A DNA stretch of 64,000 nucleotides from Natronorubrum sulfidifaciens JCM 14089 (lineage in GTDB: Archaea; Halobacteriota; Halobacteria; Halobacteriales; Natrialbaceae): the NCBI RefSeq assembly GCF_000337735.1, contig NZ_AOHX01000039.1:175037-239036 (forward strand), written 5' to 3'. Under the pieces are notes generated by a model. It made no database searches and had not been told where the DNA came from. It worked only from the letters and a program-made list of their open reading frames with translations. The position numbers and the translations under genes are program-made. This document shows positions 8,165 through 53,236 of this stretch, piece by piece (position 1 is the first letter of the stretch; every line of letters starts with the position of its first letter).

Positions 8165-8220
8165 GCGCTCGAGTCCGTCGCCAGTGCGTCTCTCGGCTCA
8201 AGGGCGAGGCCTGTTCGTCC

Positions 8221-8240
8221 TAACATCGGAAGCGGTGGGG
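8221..8240 (+). repeat. Origin recognition box, copy upstream of cdc6
   Basis: TAACATCGGAAGCGGTGGGG matches the box at 9777-9796 in 18 of 20 positions and keeps the terminal G-string. It lies 80 bp before the cdc6 start. A half-copy, AAACAGCGGAACC, follows at 8272-8284. Confidence 0.75.
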
Positions 8241-8271
8241 TTGCTACCATATAAAATCACGGATACAACGG

Positions 8272-8296
8272 AAACAGCGGAACCAAAGGATAAAGA
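8272..8296 (+). promoter_or_regulatory. cdc6 promoter: ORB half-site abutting a TATA box
   Basis: The half-copy AAACAGCGGAACC (8272-8284) directly precedes GATAAAGA (8289-8296), which is 24-31 nt before the cdc6 ATG. A second AT-rich word (ATATAAAAT) lies at 8249-8257. The arrangement suggests that Cdc6 binding would occlude transcription-factor binding. Confidence 0.5.
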
Positions 8297-8319
8297 CATC
8301 CAACGAGACACGTCACGCA

Positions 8320-9507
8320 ATGTCGGATTTCAGCTTCAAGCCGACCGGGAGTATCTTCAAAGAGCGTGAAGCGCTCTTAGAGGAGTGGACACCCGACGAA
8401 TTGGTTGGTCGGGACGAAGAACTCAGGCAGTATCACGCTGCACTCCAGCCCGTGATCGAAGGCGAAACGCCATCCAACATCTTCCTGTACGGCAAAAGCG
8501 GCGTCGGGAAAACCGCTGCGACCCGGTTTCTCCTCCAACTGCTCGAGCGCGACGCCGGGAAGGTCGACGGGCTCGACCTCCACACCGTCGAAATCAACTG
8601 CGACGGCCTCAACTCCAGCTATCAGACGGCCGTTGCACTCGTTAACGAACTCCGCGATCCGACGAACCAGATCTCGAACACCGGCTACCCACAGGCCTCA
8701 GTCTACCAGTTTCTGTTCGACGAACTCGATACACTCGGCGGCACCGTCCTCATCGTCCTCGACGAGGTCGACCATATTCGAGACGATAGCCTCCTCTATA
8801 AGCTCCCGCGAGCGCGCTCGAACGGTGACGTGACGGCCGCACGGCTCGGCGTGATCGGCATCTCTAACGATCTCGACTTCCGGAATCAGCTCAGTTCGAA
8901 AGTCCGCTCGAGTCTGTGTGAGAAGGAGGTCTCGTTCAGCGCCTACGACGCGAACGAACTCTGTGAGGTGCTTCGCCAACGTGAGGCAGTCGCCTTCGAG
9001 AACGACGTCCTCGATACCGGCGTCATCGAGATGTGTGCCGCCTACGGCGCGAAAGACTCCGGTGACGCGCGACAGGCGCTCGATCTCTTGCTTGAGAGTG
9101 GCGACATCGCCCGCGAGACCAACACCGAACTGGTAACGGAAGCCCACGTCCGCGAGGCCAGAGAGCGACTCCAGACCGATCAGGTCGTCGAAGGGATCAG
9201 TAACTACTCGATGCACGGCCAACTCGTCCTGTGGGCGTTGACCATCTTAGAAGAGCAAGGACAGACGCCGGCGCGAACTCGTGACGTCCGCGACCCCTAC
9301 GAAATGCTGTGTGAACGCGAAGGCAACGATCCTGTCTCCGACCGCGCAGTGCGTGAGTATCTCGCCGAACTCGAGACGCTCGGCATCATCTCCTCGACAC
9401 AAGTCAACCGCGGGAAAGGCGGCGGAAAGTACAAACAACACGAACTCGATCAGTCCGTCTCGAGTGTGAAAGCCGGCCTGTCGGAGCTGTTGGATACCGC
9501 TGCGTGA
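8320..9507 (+). CDS. cdc6: Orc1/Cdc6-family replication initiator
   Basis: 395-residue AAA+ origin-binding protein: Walker A GKSGVGKTAAT near residue 56, Walker B VLIVLDEVDH near 145, sensor 1 GISNDLDF near 187, and a C-terminal winged helix (~300-390). It recognises origin recognition boxes and recruits MCM. It is flanked on both sides by copies of one repeat, which ties this paralogue to the adjacent origin. Haloarchaea carry many Cdc6 paralogues, each with its own box sequence, so a numbered gene name is not assigned. Confidence 0.95.
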   Translation: MSDFSFKPTGSIFKEREALLEEWTPDELVGRDEELRQYHAALQPVIEGETPSNIFLYGKSGVGKTAATRFLLQLLERDAGKVDGLDLHTVEINCDGLNSSYQTAVALVNELRDPTNQISNTGYPQASVYQFLFDELDTLGGTVLIVLDEVDHIRDDSLLYKLPRARSNGDVTAARLGVIGISNDLDFRNQLSSKVRSSLCEKEVSFSAYDANELCEVLRQREAVAFENDVLDTGVIEMCAAYGAKDSGDARQALDLLLESGDIARETNTELVTEAHVREARERLQTDQVVEGISNYSMHGQLVLWALTILEEQGQTPARTRDVRDPYEMLCEREGNDPVSDRAVREYLAELETLGIISSTQVNRGKGGGKYKQHELDQSVSSVKAGLSELLDTAA

Positions 9508-9551
9508 GTGAGACGGTCTGCTGTACCGAGACACCCGCAGGGACGTTTCTA

Positions 9552-9571
9552 CCCCACCACTTCCGCTGTTA
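9552..9571 (-). repeat. Origin recognition box 1
   Basis: On the minus strand TAACAGCGGAAGTGGTGGGG; 18 of 20 positions agree with the box at 9777. Ends in the G-string described for haloarchaeal ORBs. Confidence 0.8.
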
Positions 9572-9597
9572 CTGGGCGACTGTGTGGCTCACACCCA

Positions 9598-9617
9598 CCC
9601 CACTGCTTCCGCTGTTA
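9598..9617 (-). repeat. Origin recognition box 2
   Basis: On the minus strand TAACAGCGGAAGCAGTGGGG, identical to the plus-strand box at 9777-9796 and 46 bp from box 1. Confidence 0.85.
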
Positions 9618-9776
9618 GCTGAACTCGAGGTGACTCGAGGACTGCCGTTCCGGCCGGTACTGATCCACGAGACATATATAGAATTAAGTACTATAGCTAA
9701 AAACCATATCCGCATACCGTTTCTCACTAACTGCAAGGCACCCCCTCCCATGGGGGTGGTGCAGTCGTTTTCCCGC

Positions 9777-9796
9777 TAACAGCGGAAGCAGTGGGG
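9777..9796 (+). repeat. Origin recognition box 3, inverted relative to boxes 1 and 2
   Basis: TAACAGCGGAAGCAGTGGGG, a perfect 20-bp match to box 2 in opposite orientation, 159 bp away across the AT-rich segment. The G-string continues as GGGGTGGGTGGG. Confidence 0.85.
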
Positions 9797-9944
9797 TGGG
9801 TGGGTCCCACTGCTCGACAGTCCGCTGTGCTCGCAGGTCGACTCGCATGATGGGTTCATCCGCCCGTGACATCCCGTCGATATGCCAGTACGGCTTGCAC
9901 AGTTGCCCCGCGGCTATATTGATCGTGCGATCGTATGACAGGTT

Positions 9945-52875: not shown

Positions 52876-53236
52876 GTTATTGCTAACCACAGACAATCAC
52901 GAACTCAACTCCGTATGATGGATATAAATAAATTATGTTAATAATCTTATATTGTATTTATTGTTGTCATGATATTGGTGGTGATTGACGTACTCTCGTT
53001 AGGACTCGACACAGATCTCTCGACGGGATTAACGCCGATACGGACACATGTTGGAAGAGTAATATTAGAGGTAGTGGCACACATGTCAAACTACTCAGTA
53101 ATCAATCACGGAGGTGACGATCAGTCGACGTTGTTCGCACCACACCCGTCATTCTACGGGCTTTTCGGCCGCGGGGTTATCAGATGTGGTAATCTGCACG
53201 TGACTTTTTTGAAGGGGGAACAATAGGTTGAATTCA
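52876..53236. promoter_or_regulatory. AT-rich divergent promoter region between the liv operon and the pilus operon
   Basis: 361 bp. The left part (52918-52970) is unusually AT-rich and holds overlapping TATA words; TTTATTTATA at about 52925-52934 on the minus strand fits the liv operon. A TAATATTAGAG element at 53061-53071 and other AT-rich words could serve the pilus operon. An open frame at 52969-53226 (85 residues) has odd composition and is not called. Confidence 0.5.

Follow-up and report, generated by a model that had tools for sequence, protein, structure and literature searches.

A predicted Orc1/Cdc6-ORB replicator module in a haloarchaeal chromosome, with a conserved arrangement of ORB elements around the cdc6 TATA box

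Introduction

The closest described relative of the locus reported here is one of two origins of the Haloarcula hispanica minichromosome, oriC6-cdc6I or oriC7-cdc6J. Both replicate plasmids and depend on their cognate cdc6 genes; one origin of this pair is essential (PMC3528665, PMC3936714). The same minichromosome has been described as carrying cdc6G, cdc6H, and Cdc6H_C (PMC4441112). Also in H. hispanica, oriC2-cdc6E has boxes on both sides of its cdc6 gene, the downstream cluster oriC2D being a titration site devoid of origin activity (PMC3936714). A further relative is origin II of Halorubrum lacusprofundi (Hla_3512, on a megaplasmid) and Haloquadratum walsbyi (Hwa_HQ2959A), in which two box types flank one cdc6; the ORB common to the two species, TAACAGCGGAAACAGTGGGGTGGGGGGGT, was published in 2012, and the co-occurrence of box and initiator has been reported for haloarchaea generally (PMC3528665). 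Outside this group, Sulfolobus Orc1-2 has been found bound to its own promoter (PMC9738581).

We analyzed a 64,000-nucleotide stretch of the Natronorubrum sulfidifaciens JCM 14089 assembly (contig NZ_AOHX01000039.1, positions 175,037 to 239,036), hereafter the window, whose numbering is used throughout. A sequence-only reading had proposed a replication origin marked by four copies of a 20-nt box around a cdc6 gene. Our analysis indicates, with a probability of roughly 90%, that positions 8165-9891 form a complete Orc1/Cdc6-ORB replicator-initiator module belonging to the family of a functional H. hispanica minichromosome origin. The system is thus of a known kind, and what is new concerns mainly its movement between replicons and the layout of the cdc6 switch.

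Results

The initiator gene (8320-9507, plus strand) encodes 395 residues with intact AAA+, lid, and winged-helix domains, as judged from profile matches (TIGR02928, 425.9 bits; PF22703; PF09079), and a sequence relationship links its product to archaeal Cdc6 (PDB 2QBY and 2V1U). The 20-mer occurs exactly at 9598-9617 (minus) and 9777-9796 (plus), and with two mismatches (18/20) at 9552-9571 (minus) and 8221-8240 (plus), which places three ORBs downstream of cdc6 and one upstream. Both the intact gene beside the boxes and the coordinates and strands of all four copies had been given correctly by the sequence-only reading. At up to three mismatches, 100 dinucleotide shuffles gave no match at all, while the whole 3.46-Mb host assembly gave six, four of them at the cdc6 locus and two weak ones elsewhere, with none for the reversed pattern. 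The box is thus concentrated at this site, and chance can be neglected as an explanation.

Of the 13 Orc/Cdc6 loci of the host that score above or close to the family cut-off, only the present one carries the 20-mer box. The nearest paralogue, L017, is 55% identical, lies on a 33-kb contig, and has a related but distinct box, GAACAGCGGACAAAGTGGGG; another paralogue has a single match at five mismatches and the remaining ones have none. At L017 (G000 contig C61, 862-1430), the GAACAGCGGACAAAGTGGGG boxes are arranged in inverted pairs. Membership in the oriC1 family was considered and rejected, as the putative oriC1 initiator of the host, which is in two pieces (L026/L029), is only 35-39% identical.

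The two exact boxes delimit what we take to be the origin core. They form part of a 36-nt inverted repeat (9584-9619 and 9775-9810, 92% complementary) that takes in the box pair and the adjoining G-strings, with GGGGTGGGTGGGT following the 9777 box and GGGGTGGGTGTG following the 9598 box as a G-string at the ORB end. With these extensions the left core ORB spans 9590-9617 (minus) and the right one, with its G-string TGGGTGGGT, 9777-9805 (plus). The putative unwinding region between them (9618-9776) contains the AT-rich patch that had been read from the sequence, 9671-9716 (46 bp), with 28% GC against 62% for the window; only 61 of the 63,955 stretches of this size are as AT-rich. The copies had also been said to point toward each other. 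Instead, the exact pair diverges, since the 5' TAACAG ends of both boxes face the AT-rich patch and the G-strings point outward, the orientation in which both G-strings of oriC1 in H. hispanica are written. The locus nevertheless combines the features of origins adjacent to haloarchaeal orc/cdc6 genes, namely an intact initiator, at least two adjacent ORBs, and G-strings, with inverted boxes (9598 minus, 9777 plus) around an AT-rich patch (9671-9716), so that the assignment to the known haloarchaeal Orc1/Cdc6 and ORB origin type with G-string ends holds. By analogy with the family, Cdc6 would use its winged-helix and AAA+ domains to bind three boxes (9552, 9598, and 9777), melt the AT-rich patch at 9671-9716, and then load MCM. 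AT-richness in the window peaks elsewhere, at 52907-52932 (down to 11% GC over 46 bp), where no origin boxes were found. It is intergenic, upstream of a gene for a predicted transporter substrate-binding protein, and a second origin at ~52.9 kb was rejected, the site being a promoter region devoid of boxes.

The closest tested relative was traced through a genome in our survey, G131, whose contig 1 (488,918 bp) carries four cdc6 genes. One is N-truncated (matching from profile position 16), one lacks the winged helix, and a C-terminal fragment lies ~123 kb from the latter. Because this is exactly the cdc6 set described for the H. hispanica minichromosome (PMC4441112), G131 is in all likelihood H. 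hispanica. Its orthologue, at 383 kb of the contig, is an 80.05% identical Cdc6; with two of the four genes incomplete, it should be one of the intact pair, cdc6I or cdc6J, and map order favors cdc6J/oriC7 over cdc6I/oriC6. The criterion of Wu 2012 groups origins whose Orc/Cdc6 proteins are at least 80% identical and whose ORBs are the same, and it places the present locus, right at the identity threshold, in the cdc6J/oriC7 family. The two loci share the 20-nt box family (TAACAGCGGAACCAGTGGGG, TAACAGCGGAAGTAGTGGGG, and TAACAGCGGAAGCGGTGGGG in H. hispanica, each with one mismatch), a core pair 180 bp apart around an AT minimum, and a promoter box (at -81 there) accompanied by half-boxes. However, the H. 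hispanica core lies upstream of cdc6 rather than downstream, there are nine boxes instead of four (at up to four mismatches, a half-box match included), and the replicon is a minichromosome rather than a chromosome. Since this ARS-active relative has an 80% identical initiator, the origin reading of our locus gains experimental support by analogy. The likeness to oriC2-cdc6E is limited to boxes flanking cdc6 on both sides; initiator and replicon are different, and there is no large downstream cluster here.

In a survey of 392 genomes of the order, with 95 genera sampled, the box (at up to two mismatches) was found in 114 genomes and 38 genera, with the reversed-pattern control near nil. Orthologues of the initiator (E <= 1e-175; 72-98% identity) occur in 43 genomes, and 41 of these carry the box, compared to 73 of the 349 genomes that have no orthologue at this cut-off, which indicates that box and initiator travel together. 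Several of the latter 73 (Halorussus and Haladaptatus; plasmid records) possess a more distant relative (60-62% identity) whose box is slightly changed. The distribution also bears on the suggestion that this is a lineage-specific origin-initiator pair with a novel box unlike that of Haloarcula. Although the box does differ from those of the other initiators in the same genome, this idea is already refuted: in its first 20 bases the published TAACAGCGGAAACAGTGGGGTGGGGGGGT (PMC3528665) differs from ours at one position, the box is spread over more than a third of the sampled genera and is found on many named plasmids, and in H. hispanica it lies beside an 80%-identical Cdc6 on the minichromosome. 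Indeed, the plasmid search also found the box on NC_012030, a 431-kb H. lacusprofundi replicon, and origin II shares the near-identical box and the same G-string, a comparison that concerns the box alone. A viral connection was sought without success: no exact box was present in IMG/VR contigs, nor did phage records include a related Cdc6.

Several genomes in the survey show the box arrangement twice. Contig C1 of G194 has identical three-box spacing at 1826205-1829085 and 2378054-2380934, 552 kb apart, an apparent duplication of an origin within a single 3.8-Mb contig. Near-identical box pairs lie ~387 kb apart on one megaplasmid of G181 (contig C2, 434,135 bp; 12.5-14.4 kb and 399.9-401.8 kb), and the plasmid record of equal length (Halorussus aquaticus) has cdc6 in two places too. 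The same cdc6 and boxes at both ends of a 113-kb contig (L107/L108, G006 contig C10) are probably the terminal overlap of an unclosed circular plasmid.

The core architecture is well preserved. Among 33 close relatives (17 from two families, the host's included, and 16 Haloarculaceae), 28 have the lowest-GC intergenic stretch between a minus and a plus box whose starts are 175-196 bp apart, mostly 179-182 bp. The side on which the core lies, however, differs, a further new observation: it is downstream of cdc6 in the host's family and in Halalkalicoccus, whereas Haloarculaceae have it upstream and retain minus boxes immediately past the stop codon. With P denoting the promoter box, the order (+P)cdc6(-)(-)AT(+) could hypothetically be converted to (-)AT(+)(+P)cdc6(-) by a single inversion of cdc6 between inverted boxes. 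The flanks of the distant relatives are non-syntenic.

The fourth box (8221-8240, plus) had been counted as part of the origin, but it lies outside the core and is instead a cdc6 promoter box, which ends 9 nt short of the TATA box (TATAAAA, 8250-8256, plus) and 80 nt short of the ATG. On the other side of the TATA box follow two plus-strand half-boxes, CAACGGAA at 8266-8273 (-54 from the ATG) and CAGCGGAA at -45, the latter with a conserved tail, ACCAAAGG(T/A)TAA, in the interval 8275-8294. This arrangement, in which the cdc6 TATA box is closely preceded by an ORB and closely followed by two half-boxes, recurs in all 42 loci inspected, with an ORB-type half-site at about -96 and half-boxes at about -54 and -45. 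The TATA box, conserved at about -70 to -75, was found by pattern near -72 in 40 loci, and 39 have a full box (at up to five mismatches) at the first promoter position. In two loci the elements are displaced 9 nt upstream and an extra half-box is present. In the Halorussus and Haladaptatus relatives, which are ~61-74% identical in the compared part, the half-boxes are retained downstream of a sequence resembling a TATA box. Because the relatives are not independent samples, we attach no probability to this conservation.

Such fixed spacing argues for a function. Since the boxes enclose the cdc6 TATA box, Cdc6 bound to the 8221 box and to the half-boxes at 8266-8282 should hide the promoter and would thereby limit its own synthesis. 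From the conserved position of the elements we therefore predict self-repression of cdc6; the simplest function of the spacing would be that the cdc6 product keeps TBP/TFB off the promoter. In the literature searched, we found no report of such a layout for an archaeal cdc6 promoter. Sulfolobus Orc1-2 provides a precedent for the principle, as an Orc1-family protein at its own promoter, although it is a damage-response regulator rather than an initiator and its motif is unrelated.

That ORB elements, one full box and a pair of half-boxes, surround the TATA box at each of the 42 loci could also mean that the boxes serve only to control cdc6 transcription or to titrate the initiator, as oriC2D does in H. 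hispanica (PMC3936714), with no origin present. We regard this as very improbable, because the inverted core pair around the AT-rich patch keeps a fixed spacing on whichever side of cdc6 it lies, and because the H. hispanica relative is ARS-active.

The cassette comprising cdc6 and all boxes (8165-9891) extends from a cupin gene to the promoter of an acyl-CoA dehydrogenase gene. These flanks are syntenic in seq­uenced relatives, namely seven same-genus genomes, and the cassette is present in three of the eight genomes, host included: G326 (on a 3.35-Mb contig) and G359 have it at the same site. In the other five (G189, G200, G229, G312, and G371), the region between cupin and acyl-CoA dehydrogenase genes contains no box. 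The gap is ~110 bp in G200 and G371, and in the remaining three it is filled by other sequence, which in G229 and G312 includes a different reading frame. A remnant origin that had lost its cdc6 was considered for G229 and rejected: a membrane-protein-like frame, unrelated to the module, fills the gap, and a box is absent even at four mismatches. The same type of frame occupies the slot in G312 (L100 2529-3005 and L101 2262-2732 for G229 and G312) and probably in G189; an alternative frame in the same slot suggests that the cupin-acyl-CoA dehydrogenase junction may be an insertion hot spot.

Within 8165-9891 there is no integrase or transposase, and the named plasmid relatives (25 records) are all megaplasmids of 100-620 kb. 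New here is that a ~1.7-kb cassette occupies a chromosomal position found empty in five genomes of the genus, while many relatives are on megaplasmids. The empty sites and the plasmid relatives suggest placement from plasmid to chromosome, in which a replicator module often found on megaplasmids would have entered this site in one branch of the genus, unaided by a mobile gene of its own. A gain in a single branch explains the distribution most simply, the alternative being loss in several.

We consider use of the module as a chromosomal origin in vivo somewhat more probable than its disuse. Neither a GC-skew signal nor an AT-skew reversal was seen at the locus in the complete chromosome of G326 (20 of every 40 kb sampled) or in contig C39 (20-kb stretches), AT-skew in G326 having the same sign on both sides; skew is a weak and indecisive proxy here, as AT-skew at this scale follows gene direction. 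The number of ORBs, three in the core and one at the promoter, is at the low end, and any of about a dozen other Orc/Cdc6 genes of the host may drive replication. An origin that is complete in structure yet dormant, retained so that the initiator is expressed or as a reserve while oriC1 and others do the work, is a substantial possibility, if one below even odds. It would fit the lack of skew reversal, the presence of the cassette in only three of eight sampled same-genus genomes, and the fact that haloarchaea often have predicted origins that are inactive (PMC3528665, PMC4595724). On the other hand, the initiator has an intact frame and its promoter and core boxes are intact too, and three genomes have retained the cassette with a 98%-identical initiator, which speaks against dormancy.

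Discussion

The promoter layout and the position of the core can be combined into one proposal: that a fixed order of ORB, TATA box, half-box, and half-box mediates self-repression of cdc6 in at least six haloarchaeal families, and that the core changed sides by inversion of cdc6. As a joint claim, we put this only just short of an even chance. If true, it would give an archaeal initiator a DnaA-like feedback loop and provide a simple route for origin rearrangement. The promoter layout makes autoregulation of archaeal initiators, little studied so far, testable with reporters, and L017 and the present locus constitute a natural pair for examining how initiators discriminate between boxes. More broadly, the analysis connects a chromosomal locus not studied before with a family of origins for which experiments exist, and it offers a probable example of a chromosome having captured a megaplasmid-type replicator, the empty sites being still visible in sister species.
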